DNA of 28,171 bases from a virus. Below the pieces are notes generated by a model. That model saw only the letters and a program-made list of their open reading frames with translations, did no database searches and was not told the origin of the DNA. Position 1 is the first letter of the stretch, and every line of letters starts with the position of its first letter. This document shows positions 5,248 to 27,910 of the stretch, one piece after another. Both the position numbers and the translations under genes were made by a program. The stretch lies in IMG/VR virus record IMGVR_UViG_3300027659_000166, positions 1-28,171 of that record. One strand, 5' to 3'.

Positions 5248-6828
5248 ATGGCTATTAATTTATTTGGCTGGGAAATTATTAGATCTGAGTCTAATAAAAA
5301 TTTGCAACCAGCAATAACAGCACCCACAACAGATGATGGTGCGATTTCGATCAGCTCTGGTGGATATTTTGGATCTTATTTAGATTTAGAAACCTCATTT
5401 AAAAATGAAGGAGATTTAATTACACGCTATAGAGAAATGGCTATGCAGCCAGAACTCGAAGCTGCAGTTGACGATATTATTAATGAATCAATCGTGCATG
5501 ATGTAACGGGAAAATCTGTTACAATTATATTAGATGATCTAGAACAACCAGATAATATTAAAGATATGATTCGTGAAGAATTTGAATTAATTCTTCGTAA
5601 ACTTAATTTTTCTAACGAAGGGCATGATATTTTTAGACGCTGGTATATCGATGGTCGTTTATATTTCCAAGTATTAATTGATGAAAAACAACCTAAACTT
5701 GGTATACAAGAATTAGTTTATGTTGATCCTCGTAAAATTAAAAAAGTTCGTAATGTTGTAAAGAAAAAAGATCCTAGAACTAATGTCGAAGTCGTCACAG
5801 GCACTCAAGAATTTTATGTCTATAACGATAAAGCCACTACACTCGGTCAAACATTTATAACCTCACCGACTGATAGTGGAATCAAGATTGCTACTGATTC
5901 AATTGTGAACGTAAATTCTGGATTAATGGATCCAAAGAAACAAATGGTTTTATCATATCTACATAAAGCCATTAAACCTTTAAATCAATTGCGTATGGTT
6001 GAAGATGCGGTTGTTATCTACCGCCTATCACGTGCGCCAGAGCGTCGTGTGTTTTATATTGATGTTGGCAATATGCCTAAAATCAAAGCAGAACAATATC
6101 TTCGCGATATGATGACTAAATTTAGAAATAAAATTGTATATGATTCTTCAACTGGCGAAGTTAAAGACGATCGCAAGTTTATGTCAATGATGGAAGATTT
6201 TTGGATTCCACGTCGAGGTGAAGGTAAGTCTACAGAAATTACAACACTACCTTCAGGACAAAATCTCGGTGAATTATCTGATGTTAGATATTTTGAACAA
6301 AAATTGTTTAAGTCATTAAACGTTCCTATTTCAAGATTAGAATCAACAACAGGATTTTCTCTAGGAAGAACATCAGAAATTACTAGAGACGAATTAAAAT
6401 TTATGAAATTTATTGAGAGATTAAGAGCAAAATTTAGTATATTGTTTGACGATTTAATGGAACGACAACTATCATTGAAAGGCATTTGCTCAGTAGATGA
6501 ATGGAAAGAAATTAGAGAAAAGATTCATTATGATTTCTTAAAAGATAATAATTTTGCAGAATTAAAAGAATCTGAACTTTTAATGTCAAGAATGCAAACT
6601 ATGCAATTGATAGACCCATACATTGGAACATATTTCTCCAAAGCATGGGTCAAAAAACATGTTTTACATTTGTCTGAAGAAGATCAACAATTGATTGACA
6701 GTCAATTAAAAGAAGATGAAATTAATGAGCCTAGTTTGCAGCAACCGATTCCAACTGTTGCAGCTAATAAAGCGAATAACGAATCTGAATCGATTGACAG
6801 TTTATTCATGAATCAAATAAATAAATAA
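5248..6828 (+). CDS. 20: Portal protein (gp20-like)
   Basis: This is the head portal vertex protein: a dodecameric ring that starts prohead assembly, serves as the DNA channel and docks the terminase and the tail. Length (526) is almost identical to T4 gp20 (524). Typical gp20 stretches are visible: AVDDIINESIVHD near residues 73-85, QELVYVDPRKIKKVR near 155-170, RAPERRVFYIDVGNMP near 260-275, and LGELSDVRYFEQKLFKSLNVP near 335-357. The last 40 residues are polar and probably disordered. The Shine-Dalgarno ATGGAG precedes the ATG by eight bases. Confidence 0.97.
   Translation: MAINLFGWEIIRSESNKNLQPAITAPTTDDGAISISSGGYFGSYLDLETSFKNEGDLITRYREMAMQPELEAAVDDIINESIVHDVTGKSVTIILDDLEQPDNIKDMIREEFELILRKLNFSNEGHDIFRRWYIDGRLYFQVLIDEKQPKLGIQELVYVDPRKIKKVRNVVKKKDPRTNVEVVTGTQEFYVYNDKATTLGQTFITSPTDSGIKIATDSIVNVNSGLMDPKKQMVLSYLHKAIKPLNQLRMVEDAVVIYRLSRAPERRVFYIDVGNMPKIKAEQYLRDMMTKFRNKIVYDSSTGEVKDDRKFMSMMEDFWIPRRGEGKSTEITTLPSGQNLGELSDVRYFEQKLFKSLNVPISRLESTTGFSLGRTSEITRDELKFMKFIERLRAKFSILFDDLMERQLSLKGICSVDEWKEIREKIHYDFLKDNNFAELKESELLMSRMQTMQLIDPYIGTYFSKAWVKKHVLHLSEEDQQLIDSQLKEDEINEPSLQQPIPTVAANKANNESESIDSLFMNQINK
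6820..6827 (+). promoter_or_regulatory. Putative T4-type late promoter at end of portal gene
   Basis: AATAAATA matches the T4 late consensus TATAAATA at seven of eight positions. It overlaps the portal stop codon and lies 14 bases before the gp67-like start. The following bases (ATATT) make a 12-base run, ATAAATAATATT, identical to the run before the scaffold gene at 8724-8735. The AT-rich setting makes a chance match possible, and the distance to the ATG leaves room for only a very short leader. Confidence 0.4.
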
Positions 6829-14913: not shown

Positions 14914-15453
14914 ATGGCTAAAAATCACTATATCAATAACAAAGATTTTCTCAAAGAGATGATCAAATATCGCACAGCAATCCGCAAAGCAAAAAGGCAA
15001 GGATTACCTAAACCGCAAATCCCAACATATGTTGCCAAATGTTTTATGATGATTGCTGAAAATTTATCACATAAACCAAATTTTGTATCATATACATTTA
15101 GAGACGAAATGATTGCAGATGCAATTGAAAATTGTGTGATGTATGTTGATAATTTTGACACAAAAAAATCTAAAAATCCATTTGCCTATTTCACGCAAAT
15201 AGTATATTATGCATTCTTACGTCGCATTCAAAAAGAAAAGAAACAATTGTATGTTAAATACAAGGCGACAGAAACTGCTGGTATTCTTGATGAGTTTGAA
15301 TTGAATGAGAATGAGGATGGAACTTTTAGGCAATTTGAACTTTATGAAAATATTTCAGAGTTTATTGTAAACTATGAGAATGCTCGTAAGGAAAAGAAAG
15401 CCAAAAAAGCAGGTCTGGAGAAATTTGTAGATGAAGATAGCAATCCTGGGTGA
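14914..15453 (+). CDS. 55: Late transcription sigma factor (gp55-like)
   Basis: The phage sigma-family protein that directs host RNA polymerase to TATAAATA late promoters. The 179 residues are near T4 gp55 (185). Region-2-like sequence is visible: PNFVSYTFRDEMIADAIENCVMYVDNFDTKKSKNPFAYFTQIVYYAFLRRIQKEKK, in which YAFLRRI and the surrounding helix form the sigma core that contacts polymerase and melts DNA. The C-terminus (GLEKFVDEDSNPG) shows no obvious hydrophobic clamp-binding tail, unlike T4 gp55. The gene overlaps gp47 by 23 bases. Late-type elements before genes 18, 67, 22 and the tube-like gene are its likely targets. Confidence 0.92.
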   Translation: MAKNHYINNKDFLKEMIKYRTAIRKAKRQGLPKPQIPTYVAKCFMMIAENLSHKPNFVSYTFRDEMIADAIENCVMYVDNFDTKKSKNPFAYFTQIVYYAFLRRIQKEKKQLYVKYKATETAGILDEFELNENEDGTFRQFELYENISEFIVNYENARKEKKAKKAGLEKFVDEDSNPG

Positions 15454-23059: not shown

Positions 23060-23082
23060 CATAATGGTTCTTGGAGGAATTT

Positions 23083-24375
23083 ATGATTAAGACTATTGTA
23101 GCAAAGAATAAAATTGATTGCGCCCACCTCCTAGGTCAATTCCTAGATACATCCCATTATGATGTTTTAATTGAAGAAGATACTGACTGTTACATAGGAA
23201 GCGAAAGCGAAGAAAATATTGCTTTCAAATTTCGCAAGAATTTCTTTAGCAAAGAGCAACAAGATCAAGCCTATGCAGGTTTGCGTGATGCTGCTGTTGC
23301 ATCTCAGAATCGTGGACTTGCTGCTGGACCGAAAGGCGAAAAATGCGGCAATCGTGAATGGGTGACTGAGTATCAACTGCGTGTGTTAGATTTCTTTAAG
23401 AAACAATCTGAATATACAACTATTGAAATCGACGTTGCTGAAGAAGTTGCTAAACTCAAAGAACTCTATGGCGATGTAGATTCTAGTCGAGGTCTTGTTT
23501 GGTTGACGCAACAAACCAAAGAACACAACTTTAATTTTGAATCTTGGTTGAAAACATCAGTTAAGATAACTGTTGCCAAACGAAAAGAAGAAGTAAAGGC
23601 AATTGAAGAAACATTCATCTCGGATACAACTTATGCTAATGTTGTAATGTCAGGAATTGCTGGATGGTTTGATCGATATCCGCGCATTCCTTATGGTCGT
23701 GCTACATCATATACACAACACCATTATGATAAGTTTAAAATGTCGTTTCCATTTTTGCAAACATTAGATCGTGGATTCAAAGAATTATTGCCATGGCGCT
23801 GGAGCAATCAAAGGGCTGCGGCTGATAAGATTGATCCAGCATTTCTTGTTCCTGAAACTGTGTTTACTACAATTACAGTAAACAAAACATTTAGAACTGC
23901 CGCGCATTATGATGCTGGAGACTTTACTGATGGACTCTCTAATCTCTTGGTTCTTTCCAATAATGGCAACTATTCTGGCGGCTATTTGGTTCTACCTGAA
24001 GTCAGAATAGCAATCAATGTGCGTCCAGGAGATTTGCTCCTAGTTAATAATCATGAATGCATGCACGGTAACACGCCTATTGAAATCAATGATGAGGTTG
24101 CTGAGCGCATTAGCCTAGTGTGTTATCTGCGTGAAAAAATGCTTGAACTTGGAAGCAAAGAATATGAAGATCATCGATTTAATTATGTTGAGCAGCGTAG
24201 AAAAAACAAAGAACATCCACTGCAACGCAAACTCTGGAACGGAATCAGTCCAGGAATGTGGGAAGAGCAAGAATGGTATGATTATTTGGAAAACAATAGC
24301 AGTAGAGAAATGGTTGCCAAATATCACCCAGAAGCGTATAATAAAGAATCAACACTAGAAGATTTATTCGGATAA
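23083..24375 (+). CDS. TET/JBP-family DNA-base dioxygenase
   Basis: A 2OG-Fe(II) oxygenase of the TET/JBP family, which hydroxylates the 5-methyl group of thymine (JBP) or 5-methylcytosine (TET) in DNA. Metal ligands are H275 and D277 in AHYDAGDF and H328 in HECMHGNTPI. The 2OG-binding arginine is R342 in ERISLVCYLREKM. Family-typical stretches are TTITVNKTFRTAAHYDAGDF, GGYLVLPEVRIAINVRPGDLLL and, near the N-terminus, ASQNRGLAAGP. The protein has 430 residues. A TTG at 23071 extends the frame, but GGAGG before the ATG at 23083 decides the start. The C-terminus is STLEDLFG, almost the same as that of the next gene. No cytosine methyltransferase is visible in this window, so thymine or a methylated base made elsewhere could be the substrate. 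Confidence 0.85.
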   Translation: MIKTIVAKNKIDCAHLLGQFLDTSHYDVLIEEDTDCYIGSESEENIAFKFRKNFFSKEQQDQAYAGLRDAAVASQNRGLAAGPKGEKCGNREWVTEYQLRVLDFFKKQSEYTTIEIDVAEEVAKLKELYGDVDSSRGLVWLTQQTKEHNFNFESWLKTSVKITVAKRKEEVKAIEETFISDTTYANVVMSGIAGWFDRYPRIPYGRATSYTQHHYDKFKMSFPFLQTLDRGFKELLPWRWSNQRAAADKIDPAFLVPETVFTTITVNKTFRTAAHYDAGDFTDGLSNLLVLSNNGNYSGGYLVLPEVRIAINVRPGDLLLVNNHECMHGNTPIEINDEVAERISLVCYLREKMLELGSKEYEDHRFNYVEQRRKNKEHPLQRKLWNGISPGMWEEQEWYDYLENNSSREMVAKYHPEAYNKESTLEDLFG

Positions 24376-24378
24376 TAT

Positions 24379-25707
24379 ATGAAAATATTGACTGTTGTTC
24401 ATGATTTCAATAATTTTGGTGGCATCATTGCTCATACTGAACAATTAATTGCTGGATTCAAAGATCTTGGGCATGAAACTGGATTTGTCTTTCTTCGTTC
24501 CACTAAAACAGGTGGAAAGTTCTCTGAAGATTATGACAAGGAAGGTTATGAGATTGGTGTCGGAACTGGTGTTCCAGTGCATCAAGGTAAGGGGTGGCGA
24601 GGTGAATATTTGTCGTTCATCAACGATGATGATGTGAATAAATTTGTAAAACTCGCCAACTCTTATGATGTGATTATTTGGCAATCTATATTTGGATTCA
24701 AGTGCCAGGATTCAGAGGGAAAGCAATCATGGTTGAAGATGTTTACGGAAGTAAAGGCAAAACATGTGGTTGTGGTGCACGACGGTAATCTGCGCAAGAA
24801 CTATCCTTGGATCCATCAATTGCGAGCGCACATTTCTGCTCTTGCATGTGTTCATCCAAGCGCATTTAATCAGGCGGCATCAATGGAAATCCCTCGATTG
24901 CTGATTCTAAATCCGCAGGATATATCCAAAAAGCGAGGAACATCATTTGATGAAAAAACTGATACAATCTTCTCGCTTCAAACATTTAAACGTTGGAAAC
25001 GTGTTGATGACCTCGTAGCAGCAGTTCCATACATTTATGGTCAAGTTATTGTTGCTGGTGATGGTATTGAGCGTGCTTACATGGCATCAAAGGATAAGTG
25101 TAAGCCAGAATACTATTGCACACTTGAGCGTGATCCGAATGCTGAAGAAGATCGTTTGGGTCATCCAATCTGGATGAATGCTCTTACACGTGGAATGAAG
25201 TATATTGGATTTGTCACTGAGCAAAAGCGTGACGAGATTCTTAGCCATAGTAAATTCCTTCTCGATCCTTCTTGGTCAAAGACCTATGGCGAACACTTTA
25301 ATCGTGTTGTTATTGATGCAATGCTTATGGGCGTTGTTCCTATTGCTCGTAATCTAGGCGTTTCTGATAATGAGAAAGGTGAAGGTTTACTCAAGCCTGG
25401 TAAAAACTATTTGATGATTCCTTGGGACGCAACACCAAAGCAGTTCGGTGATTTGTGTAACAAGTTCTTATCAATGCAGCCATTTGATTATGGTAGAATT
25501 GTTGCTAACAACTGGGAATTCGTTAAGCAGTTTGATCGTAAAGAAATTGCTTCACAGTTTCTTTCTCTCGCATTTAGTCTATGCGAAGTTAAGGTTGGTA
25601 AATATGATCAAAGCCTCAATGATGCAGTTGATTCTGTTTGGAATGGTCATTTTAAATTTGACGCAAAACTGAACGCAACATCTACCCTAGATGATTTGTT
25701 TGGTTGA
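24379..25707 (+). CDS. GT-B fold glycosyltransferase (GT4-like)
   Basis: A 442-residue sugar-nucleotide-dependent glycosyltransferase. The N-terminal Rossmann domain begins KILTVVHDFNNFGGIIAHTEQ with the glycine-rich turn of GT4 enzymes. The C-terminal domain has KRWKRVDDLVAAVPYI, VIVAGDG, and the E-x7-E motif region (E305 to D313 in GEHFNRVVIDAMLMGVVP, with Asp in place of the second Glu). It starts three bases after the stop of the TET/JBP gene, so the two are co-transcribed. A sugar transfer onto hydroxymethylated DNA bases is the simplest reading of that pairing. Transfer onto a virion or host surface is the alternative. The C-terminal tail STLDDLFG repeats that of the hydroxylase. Confidence 0.85.
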   Translation: MKILTVVHDFNNFGGIIAHTEQLIAGFKDLGHETGFVFLRSTKTGGKFSEDYDKEGYEIGVGTGVPVHQGKGWRGEYLSFINDDDVNKFVKLANSYDVIIWQSIFGFKCQDSEGKQSWLKMFTEVKAKHVVVVHDGNLRKNYPWIHQLRAHISALACVHPSAFNQAASMEIPRLLILNPQDISKKRGTSFDEKTDTIFSLQTFKRWKRVDDLVAAVPYIYGQVIVAGDGIERAYMASKDKCKPEYYCTLERDPNAEEDRLGHPIWMNALTRGMKYIGFVTEQKRDEILSHSKFLLDPSWSKTYGEHFNRVVIDAMLMGVVPIARNLGVSDNEKGEGLLKPGKNYLMIPWDATPKQFGDLCNKFLSMQPFDYGRIVANNWEFVKQFDRKEIASQFLSLAFSLCEVKVGKYDQSLNDAVDSVWNGHFKFDAKLNATSTLDDLFG

Positions 25708-25749: not shown

Positions 25750-26565
25750 ATGCAATTAGAAGTCAAAGTAGAAGAATTACGAAAGAATAAACTATTTGTT
25801 GCGACGCCTATGTATGGTGGTCATGCCCATGGCATGTATGTTAAGTCTTGTTTAGATTTACATACAGTTTGCGCGCAATATGGTATTGAAGTTCGCTTTT
25901 CATTCATTTTTAATGAATCATTAATCACTCGAGCACGCAATTATCTAGTTGATGAGTTCCTTCGCGCAGAAGGATTCACTCATTTACTGTTTATTGATGC
26001 TGATATTCACTTCGATCCTCGAGACGTCATCGCATTATTAGCGATGGATAAAGAAGTTATCGGTGGACCATATCCTAAGAAATCGATTAAGTGGGCTGCG
26101 ATTCGCGAAGCACTGAAACGAAATCCAGATATGGAAACTGGTGAGTTGGAAAAGGTTGCTGGTGATTTTGTGTTTAATCCTGCACCAGGAACTGAAAAGT
26201 TTTCTGTTGCCGAACCAATTGAAGTTCTTGAGATTGGCACTGGTTTCATGATGGTCAAGCGCGAAGTGTTTGACAAGTTTAAGGATGCTTATCCGCAACT
26301 TCGTTATAAGCCAGACCACGTTGGTCAAGCAAACTTTGATGGCTCGCGATATATCCACGCATACTTCGATACAGTTATCGACAGTAAGGCTAATGGTGGT
26401 CGAGGATCAGATCGTTACTTGTCTGAAGACTATATGTTCTGCCAATGGTGGCGTAACATCGGTGGTCAAATTTGGTTATGCCCATGGATGAGAACACATC
26501 ATATCGGCACTTATGCATTCACTGGTGATATGCCAGCAGTTGCAAATTACGTTGGCTCTCTCTAA
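25750..26565 (+). CDS. GT-A fold glycosyltransferase-like protein
   Basis: A 271-residue protein with the layout of a GT-A/GT2-type glycosyltransferase. It has LFVATPMYGGHAHGMYVKS at the N-terminus, ITRARNYLVDEFL around 59-71, and a DxD metal/sugar-nucleotide site in LLFIDADIHFDP (D83, D85). IGTGFMMVKREVF and a late acidic SEDYMFCQWW may complete the active site. It follows the GT-B gene by 42 bases with a good Shine-Dalgarno (CTGGAGTT). It lacks the DLFG tail. It might add a second sugar to the product of the first transferase or act on a different acceptor. The family is common in aquatic phage genomes, where the acceptor is usually unknown. Confidence 0.75.
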   Translation: MQLEVKVEELRKNKLFVATPMYGGHAHGMYVKSCLDLHTVCAQYGIEVRFSFIFNESLITRARNYLVDEFLRAEGFTHLLFIDADIHFDPRDVIALLAMDKEVIGGPYPKKSIKWAAIREALKRNPDMETGELEKVAGDFVFNPAPGTEKFSVAEPIEVLEIGTGFMMVKREVFDKFKDAYPQLRYKPDHVGQANFDGSRYIHAYFDTVIDSKANGGRGSDRYLSEDYMFCQWWRNIGGQIWLCPWMRTHHIGTYAFTGDMPAVANYVGSL

Positions 26566-26580
26566 TAAAGAGATTTTGTT

Positions 26581-27252
26581 ATGATCGTAGGTTTAGTTGG
26601 CTTTATTGGAGCAGGTAAAGGCACAGTTGCAGATCTCTTGGTTGATCGTCATGATTTTGTTAAAGAGAGTTTTGCGAATAGCGTCAAGGACGCCTGTGCC
26701 ACGATCTTTGGCTGGAATCGTTCCATGCTTGAGGGTGATACTCCAGGATCTAGAGCATGGCGTGAACAGCCAGATAAGTGGTGGTCAGAAAAATTCGGTC
26801 GCGAGTTTTCACCAAGATTGGCTCTCCAACTAATGGGCACAGAGGCAGGTCGTGATGTATTTCACCCTGACCTCTGGGTTCATACTACAATGCGTCGATG
26901 TGAGAATAACCCTTGGCATGATTATGTCATTGCTGATGTTCGTTTCCCAAACGAGATTAATGCAATTATAAAAGCAGGTGGCAAGATCATTCGTGTTCGT
27001 CGTGGTCCTGAACCAGAGTGGTATGATCTTGCTCGAGAAACTAATCAAGGCTATCACAAACAAGAATTATTCCGCAATGCTTATCCAGAAATCCACTACT
27101 CAGAGTGGGCGTGGATTGGTGCGCATTATGACATTGTGATGGATAATAATTGTTCGTTAGATGAATTAACAGTAAGGGTTGATAAGTTGGTTGATTCGTT
27201 ATATAATAATCATGTTGAAGCAAATGAGGTTGTTAATTATGAAACTTTCTGA
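26581..27252 (+). CDS. 1: Deoxynucleoside monophosphate kinase (T4 gp1-like)
   Basis: A 223-residue P-loop kinase of the T4 gene 1 family (241 in T4), which phosphorylates dNMPs, including 5-hydroxymethyl-dCMP in T4, to diphosphates for DNA synthesis. The P-loop GFIGAGKGT is at residues 7-15. Typical family stretches are SFANSVKDACATIFGW, ALQLMGTEAGRDVFHPDLWVHTTM and VIADVRFPNEINAIIKAGGKIIRV. It overlaps the clamp gene by 14 bases. Its place next to the clamp and the modification enzymes is suggestive, but the TET/JBP route acts on polymerised DNA, so a role with modified nucleotides is not needed. Confidence 0.92.
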   Translation: MIVGLVGFIGAGKGTVADLLVDRHDFVKESFANSVKDACATIFGWNRSMLEGDTPGSRAWREQPDKWWSEKFGREFSPRLALQLMGTEAGRDVFHPDLWVHTTMRRCENNPWHDYVIADVRFPNEINAIIKAGGKIIRVRRGPEPEWYDLARETNQGYHKQELFRNAYPEIHYSEWAWIGAHYDIVMDNNCSLDELTVRVDKLVDSLYNNHVEANEVVNYETF

Positions 27253-27910
27253 AGATACAGTGAATATCCTGAAAAATTATTCAGGCATTAATCAAAGTTT
27301 GCAATTTAAAGTTGGAAATACTCTTAAAACTATTTCTCCATTGCGAACTATTTTCGTTGAGGCTACTATAAGCGAATCGTTTCCACAAGAGTTTTCGATT
27401 TATGATCTGAATAAACTTTTAGCCAAAGTATCCTTATATAAAGATGCAGAACTGTCATTTGATTCTGATAAAGTAAATATCAGCGCAAACAAGAAGTCTG
27501 ACTACATCAAGTATTGCTCTTCAAAGGTTATTGTTGTCCCCCCAGAAAAGCCAATTTCTTTGGGAGAGCCTGATTGCTCATTTAGCCTTTCTCAAGAAGA
27601 TCTAGATTGGATGCGTAAGAGCGCAGGTATCTCTGGTTCTCCGAACTTCGTATTTGAAAGCGATGGTTCTACTATTCACTTTATTGCTACAGACGTGAAG
27701 GATGATGCTGCTGATCAGTCCAAAATTGAAATCGGCACAGTCCAAGATGGTAGTAAATTCCGCGTCGTCATGAAGGTAGAAAACTTCAAGTTACTTGAGG
27801 GATCGTATGATGTTGCGATTGCGAAAAAAGGTCTTGCTAGGTTTAAGCACAAGACTGTTGATATCACCTATTATATTGCGATTGAAGCAGCCAACTCTAC
27901 ATTTGAGTAA
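27239..27910 (+). CDS. 45: DNA polymerase sliding clamp (gp45-like)
   Basis: The trimeric clamp that tethers the polymerase and, in T4, also activates late transcription. The longest reading of the frame begins upstream at 27179, but MKLSEDTVNILKNYSGINQSL at 27239 is the natural gp45 N-terminus, with GAGG about ten bases upstream. The 223 residues compare with 228 in T4. Conserved parts include ATISESFPQEFSIYDLNKLLAKVS, QEDLDWMRKSAGI, and the C-terminal VDITYYIAIEAANSTFE. It overlaps the dNMP kinase gene by 14 bases. It sits in the same apparent operon as the TET/JBP hydroxylase and glycosyltransferase that carry DLFG tails, which may bind it. Confidence 0.96.
   Translation: MKLSEDTVNILKNYSGINQSLQFKVGNTLKTISPLRTIFVEATISESFPQEFSIYDLNKLLAKVSLYKDAELSFDSDKVNISANKKSDYIKYCSSKVIVVPPEKPISLGEPDCSFSLSQEDLDWMRKSAGISGSPNFVFESDGSTIHFIATDVKDDAADQSKIEIGTVQDGSKFRVVMKVENFKLLEGSYDVAIAKKGLARFKHKTVDITYYIAIEAANSTFE

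Follow-up and report, generated by a model that had tools for sequence, protein, structure and literature searches.

Modified bases protect phage DNA. In phage T4, the C-termini of the DNA polymerase gp43 and of gp33 and gp55 have been described as interchangeable epitopes that bind the sliding clamp gp45 (PMC2988020; PMC7892883), and an LDFL motif is found among the T4 clamp epitopes (PMC9690074). The tail of the replicative polymerase binds gp45 in T4 and RB69 (PMC2988020), and T4 late transcription likewise makes use of such tails (PMC7892883, PMC2988020). The T4 alpha-glucosyltransferase co-purifies with gp45, whereas the beta-glucosyltransferase does not; the same study concluded that neither the T4 glucosylation pattern nor the alpha/beta balance is governed mainly by gp45 binding (PMC13216743). 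A coupling of DNA modification to the clamp is thus not new in principle, since binding of the alpha-glucosyltransferase to gp45 has already been published. In the literature covered, which mostly did not include subscription papers, we found no report of a clamp-binding tail on a phage TET or on the modification families described below, and no known clamp-binding motif for the T4 alpha-glucosyltransferase, the one studied case. Known are the motif class and the principle; new is the motif on a TET and on several unrelated modification families.

The window, that is, the whole stretch of 28,171 bases of viral DNA analysed here, carries T4-type structural, recombination and replication genes (Table 1). 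The first of the two proteins considered here had been labelled a hydroxylase; this could be refined to a TET/JBP-family dioxygenase scoring 87.9 bits against the Tet_JBP profile, above the curated cut-off of 34.9. Its reading frame opens with an ATG, with a TTG also present upstream at 23071, and relatives were found in the phages DLP6, Cr30 and S-CBWM1. For the glycosyltransferase (GT), AlphaFold2 returned a confident GT-B fold (mean pLDDT 87), and the top 50 Foldseek matches of this model contained the T4 DNA alpha-glucosyltransferase (1xv5, E 1.4e-10; 1y8z, E 4.6e-10), including complexes with hydroxymethyluracil DNA, among GT4-type enzymes that matched as well as or better than 1xv5. The protein fell just under the cut-off of Pfam Glycos_transf_1 and gave only weak, sub-threshold GT1 matches, and since neither the Pfam AGT (PF11440) nor the TAGT (PF20691) profile matched, it was not filed under either family. 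Judged from the model, it is probable that this GT acts on DNA bases, and the two enzymes together probably oxidise and sugar-coat the phage DNA.

Table 1. Positions of the features discussed in the text; coordinates refer to the window unless another record is named.
Feature	Position	Strand	Evidence
gp55-type late sigma factor	14914..15453	+	PHROG 234 E 2.3e-59; sequence
TET/JBP-family 2-oxoglutarate/Fe(II) dioxygenase	23083..24375	+	Pfam Tet_JBP E 5.8e-25; PHROG 24024 E 1.6e-162
Dioxygenase C-terminal tail STLEDLFG, predicted sliding-clamp-binding motif	24349..24372	+	Tail class shared with gp43 polymerases
GT-B fold glycosyltransferase, probable DNA-base glycosyltransferase	24379..25707	+	AlphaFold2, Foldseek, Pfam
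Linker, about residues 425-434, joining the folded GT domain to the tail	25651..25680	+	pLDDT and DSSP
Glycosyltransferase C-terminal tail STLDDLFG, predicted sliding-clamp-binding motif	25681..25704	+	Sequence, relatives
Second glycosyltransferase-like protein, tail-less internal contrast	25750..26565	+	Weak Anp1 match
Deoxynucleoside monophosphate kinase (T4 gp1 family), between modification genes and clamp	26581..27252	+	Pfam DNMK, PHROG 139
gp45-type sliding clamp, predicted partner of both tails	27239..27910	+	Pfam gp45-slide_C; PHROG 223 E 6.8e-61
TET-linked cassette in place of GT	L029:2150-6336; L033:10001-14090; G003:111081-117415; G005:88764-92428		

The octapeptide ends on the two enzymes, which were the starting point of the original prediction, were recovered exactly and at the positions given there. 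The dioxygenase gene closes with TCA ACA CTA GAA GAT TTA TTC GGA TAA (24349-24375) and the glycosyltransferase gene with TCT ACC CTA GAT GAT TTG TTT GGT TGA (25681-25707), so that an L-[DE]-x-[LMF]-F core lies at the extreme C-terminus of both products. In the GT model the tail is attached to the folded domain by what appears to be a flexible linker (this holds for the GT only): pLDDT falls from about 88 to 58-65 past residue 430, and DSSP assigns coil after the helix at residues 411-424, with a short helix predicted at tail residues 437-441. The two tails are identical in seven of eight residues and in 18 of 24 bases, with third codon positions differing at six of the eight, the E/D-making one included. 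At the amino-acid composition of the window, a match of at least seven of eight residues has a chance of 2e-8 per pair, and 8e-6 such matches are expected over all pairs among the 29 C-termini of the window, in which the next best pair has three of eight residues in common.

Conservation in relatives is concentrated on a few positions. Among 73 distinct TETs, the tail leucine and the tail phenylalanine are each 99% conserved, down to about 57% sequence identity, and 90% have E directly after the leucine; certain residues immediately preceding the tail drop to 25-32%. The anchor residues are held, not the whole C-terminal end. The L-[DE]-x-[LMF]-F end is likewise kept throughout the family of the window's glycosyltransferase. 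No tail is seen in the alignment for three distant GT homologues (L122, L125 and L126, 37-38% identity), but these are only weak negative controls, because LVEFFG and MLEEFFN occur near the C-termini of L122 and L125, respectively, and because L122 may have a clamp of its own.

A shared end could in principle be a functionless copy at the DNA level, produced by gene conversion or by read-in from the polymerase or a neighbouring gene. A copy at the DNA level is accepted for one other carrier: in L241, a GIY-YIG/NUMOD3 SegE-like homing endonuclease beside gp43 carries a tail whose DNA is nearly identical to the 3' end of the adjacent polymerase gene, probably captured on insertion, and for this reason the endonuclease is not counted as an independent case. 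For the TET and GT tails, recent copying is rejected on the differing third positions and on the serine codons, which in relatives (L258, L307, L444, L455, L463, L469) are often TCN in the TET versus AGY in the GT; the claim that the likeness exists at the protein level and not through recent DNA duplication is thereby borne out. Together with the retention of the anchor residues across diverged TETs, these data make a functionless copy very improbable.

The same class of tail is present on the replicative polymerases of the group. Records with a TET or GT yielded ten gp43 DNA polymerases, all of which carry it, with ends such as SSLEDFFG, SSLENFFG, ESLEDFFS, ETLDCFFS and ATLEDLFS, and the cultured phages DLP6 and Cr30 have ATLDSFFA and ADLSSLFD, respectively; the comparison rests on the gp43 of relatives, the window's own polymerase lying outside the 28-kb record. 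The T4 tails that the original prediction had invoked are real and correspond to published gp45 epitopes: gp43 ends in KASLDFLFG, gp33 in NTLDFLL and gp55 in PSLDFLYEAND. The T4 ligase likewise has a known clamp epitope, NTFEDVFGDF, near its C-terminus. In G001, a relative of 197 kb, the strict motif closes 3 of 272 ORFs (0.7 expected), namely the DNA polymerase, the TET and the GT, and the same trio was obtained in G002. In the T4 positive control, the strict motif recovered gp43 and gp55, and gp33 was added by the broad motif [LIM][DESGTN]x[LFMI][FWYL]. Over whole genomes, hits to the broad motif exceeded expectation only slightly (1-8 versus 1-4), so the strict motif was used for the counts; the strict scan is conservative, since it missed T4 gp33 and the DLP6 TET. 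Only polymerases, chance-like ORFs aside, were found to carry the exact T4-type tail SLDFLFG.

Carriers of the motif were also searched for in IMG/VR without naming any protein, using T-L-[DE]-D-[LF]-F-G-stop and the version with AGY serine codons, together [ST]L[DE]D[LF]FG-stop. The first scan returned at least 119 stretches, the second at least 120, and a narrower, complete scan 44, as compared with 2 for a composition-matched, permuted motif. A chance likeness of two short C-termini, for which only the modest length of eight residues can be argued, is refuted by this control, the pair statistics and the conservation in relatives, and we regard it as practically ruled out. Among the matches listed, 204 distinct tail-bearing ORFs of at least 60 aa were counted, of which 162 were T4-type polymerases. 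An enrichment of the tail in the replication-associated proteins of relatives, as proposed for checking the prediction, is thus found, both in the gp43 set and in a scan dominated by T4-type polymerases.

Among the matches listed, the 42 non-polymerase carriers comprised 38 DNA-modification or glycosyltransferase-family enzymes: TETs (15), the window-type GT family (8), another GT-like family with a weak Glyco_trans_1_2 match (6), TAGTs (4), AGT homologues (3, two of them nearly identical) and DNA methylases of the N6_N4_Mtase and D12 classes (2). GIY-YIG/T5orf172-type proteins, one of them the L241 endonuclease, and unassigned proteins accounted for two each. That the other GT-like family (413-419 aa) consists of DNA enzymes is an inference, and its homologue in phage XG4 (L474) is without the tail. 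In metagenomic phages, three homologues of the T4 DNA alpha-glucosyltransferase (PF11440; L336, L351, L412) end in TSLEDFFG or SSLEDFFG, unlike the T4 enzyme itself, and a 197-aa T5orf172/MUG113 GIY-YIG-related nuclease-like protein (L388) ends in ESSLEDFFG. The tail therefore occurs on families that are not homologous to one another (TAGT, AGT, D12 and N6/N4 methylases, GNAT and one amino acid:DNA transferase, ADDT), and among the matches listed it is nearly exclusive to polymerases and DNA-modification enzymes.

The clamp had been placed in one operon with both enzymes, and a gp45 homologue was indeed located in the same gene cluster, so that the two tailed enzymes are encoded together with a cognate gp45-type clamp. 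phmmer matched it to RB69 and T4 gp45 (E 4.9e-20 and 3.2e-18), and its AlphaFold2 model (pLDDT 90) reached TM 0.89-0.90 to T4/RB69 gp45, the top structural match being the gp45-ligase peptide complex 6DRT; according to this model, the clamp of the window folds like T4 gp45. The clamp gene starts within the dNMP kinase gene, the 3' end of which it overlaps by 14 bases. The C-terminus of the kinase is without the tail. The late sigma factor of the window ends in ...GLEKFVDEDSNPG, which, from its sequence, is possibly a degenerate form of the T4 gp55 clamp epitope. A small second 2OG-Fe(II) oxygenase (PF13640; 14302-14904), distinct from the TET and tail-less, precedes gp55. The portal protein (5248-6828) ends in ...ESIDSLFMNQINK and contains a motif-like SIDSLF six residues from its end, probably by chance.

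The tails might have a shared partner other than gp45, such as the host beta clamp, the gp55/gp33-RNA polymerase complex or a mutual complex of TET and GT. LEDLF and LEDFF loosely resemble bacterial beta-clamp motifs, and tails of this kind also serve in T4 late transcription; however, the closest and commonest sharer is the replicative polymerase, the tail of which binds gp45 in T4 and RB69, and a gp45 of the phage itself is encoded in this cluster. A pure TET-GT contact is made less plausible by the TETs of relatives without the window-type GT, which have retained the tail. A partner other than gp45 hence seems unlikely to us, and the likeness of the tail to that of the polymerase speaks for replication over transcription as the target of recruitment.

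In relatives, among them G003, G005, L029 and L033, the tailed TET is kept and the GT is swapped for other enzymes. This alternative cassette, or variants of it, holds a glutamine-amidotransferase-like or threonine-dehydratase-like protein, a GNAT, an ADDT (PF18724) and a P-loop protein. The GNAT ends in PSLEEFLV or a similar sequence in about four fifths of 39 homologues, near the T4 gp33/gp55 type. The ADDT of L033, ending in TTLDHLFEV, is the only ADDT that fits the motif well; most ADDTs of relatives have a GLEALW/GLEMF end, which is conserved and not clearly the motif. The amidotransferase and the second GT-like protein do not carry the tail. In the cultured phages, the ends of the modification enzymes accompany those of the polymerases: DLP6 has ATLGDFFV on the TET and DLSSFFN on the TAGT, and in Cr30 the SDLSKLF of a TAGT-like protein mirrors the polymerase tail. 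The Cr30 TET is an exception, since it ends in GATLF and misses the full motif.

As regards the substrate, the cytosine-C5 methylase profile PF00145 had no match either in the window or in eight records of relatives (G001, G002, G003, G004, G005, G015, DLP6 and Cr30; two of these are complete cultured genomes and three are IMG/VR records with lengths of 164-197 kb), with the positive controls matched. A hydroxymethylase of the thymidylate-synthase type was not found in the searched records either, save for one PF00303 protein in Cr30. JBP oxidises thymine within DNA. The lack of a PF00145 methylase and the ADDT cassettes of relatives suggest that the TET may act on thymine in DNA in a JBP-like manner; methylation that is supplied by the host or went undetected is not excluded, and action on a 5-methylpyrimidine is inferred.

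What is established is the tail itself, the selective way in which it is conserved, its occurrence on the gp43 polymerases of this phage group, its near-restriction, among the matches listed, to polymerases and DNA-modification enzymes, and a gp45-type clamp in the gene cluster. On this basis we consider it highly probable that the octapeptide is a T4-type sliding-clamp-binding motif that recruits post-replicative base modification to the fork. The sequence data (gp43 tails, scan carriers, T4 epitopes and the gp45 homologue) strongly support the original proposal of a clamp tail; binding itself is inferred. In the proposed mechanism, the tail (consensus L-[D/E]-x-[L/M/F]-F, placed at the extreme end of the protein behind a flexible linker) would tether both enzymes to the phage gp45, the TET/JBP dioxygenase would hydroxylate a pyrimidine of the DNA at its methyl group, and the GT-B glycosyltransferase would then cap the hydroxymethyl group with a sugar. 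Carried by clamps that were loaded behind the fork, both enzymes might modify the new DNA during replication; binding to a hydrophobic patch of gp45, the order of the reactions and the timing at the fork are inferred. The polymerase-type tail on both enzymes suggests that the phage DNA is modified right behind the replication fork.

The T4 enzymes bear on this interpretation in two ways. The alpha-glucosyltransferase ends in FDIITK and, like the beta-glucosyltransferase, has no such tail, so that a tail is not required in general, the former binding gp45 without it and the latter having neither tail nor binding. This precedent makes clamp binding by the TET and GT likely and at the same time leaves its weight in the cell unsettled. 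The tails may bind gp45 and merely raise the local concentration of the enzymes on any DNA that bears a clamp, for example during late transcription, with little effect on the timing or extent of modification; indeed, the T4 alpha/beta glucosylation ratio tracks expression and activity, not gp45 binding (PMC13216743). That the tail is strongly retained in diverged phages and recurs on unrelated modification enzymes points instead to a selected benefit, and we hold this weaker role possible, though not the likely one. With recruitment to the fork as the preferred reading, we lean, by a narrow measure, towards a broader one, in which the tail is a portable and repeatedly acquired clamp tag that couples hypermodification pathways (TET, several DNA GT families, GNAT, ADDT, N6 methylases) to the fork, and in which the TET may oxidise thymine and yield, with the GT, a base-J-like sugar-thymine. 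A short, recognisable tail would offer a direct handle on how modification keeps pace with replication. It would predict which enzymes ride on clamps and allow unknown DNA-modifying enzymes to be sought by sequence, any T4-like phage protein with a polymerase-type tail being a candidate.

Compared with known systems, the tails resemble those of T4/RB69 gp43, gp33, gp55 and ligase in being extreme C-terminal and acidic-hydrophobic, with an L-D-x-L/F-F core and a gp45-type clamp, the likeness being close between SLDFLFG of T4 gp43 and STLDDLFG of the window; they differ in that the T4/RB69 carriers are a polymerase, a ligase and transcription factors, whereas those of the window are base-modification enzymes. 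The T4 alpha-glucosyltransferase is also a clamp-binding DNA glycosyltransferase, proposed to act with replication (Sommer et al., 2004, cited and re-tested in PMC13216743), but it is tail-less, and the GT of the window, which has a tailed TET as its partner, belongs to another GT-B family. As in the phage TET/JBP-glycosyltransferase operons (TAGT and others), the TET adjoins a GT, and a hydroxymethyl group would be made in DNA and then decorated; here, in contrast, no PF00145 match was found in the searched relatives and both enzymes bear the clamp tail. In eukaryotes, DNMT1 is tethered to the cellular clamp PCNA by an N-terminal PIP box in maintenance methylation. If the clamp-binding reading is true, the window would hold a phage parallel to this coupling, since in both cases a base-modifying enzyme would be held on a sliding clamp by a short motif, which in DNMT1 is an N-terminal PIP box and here a C-terminal T4-type motif on enzymes of oxidation and glycosylation.
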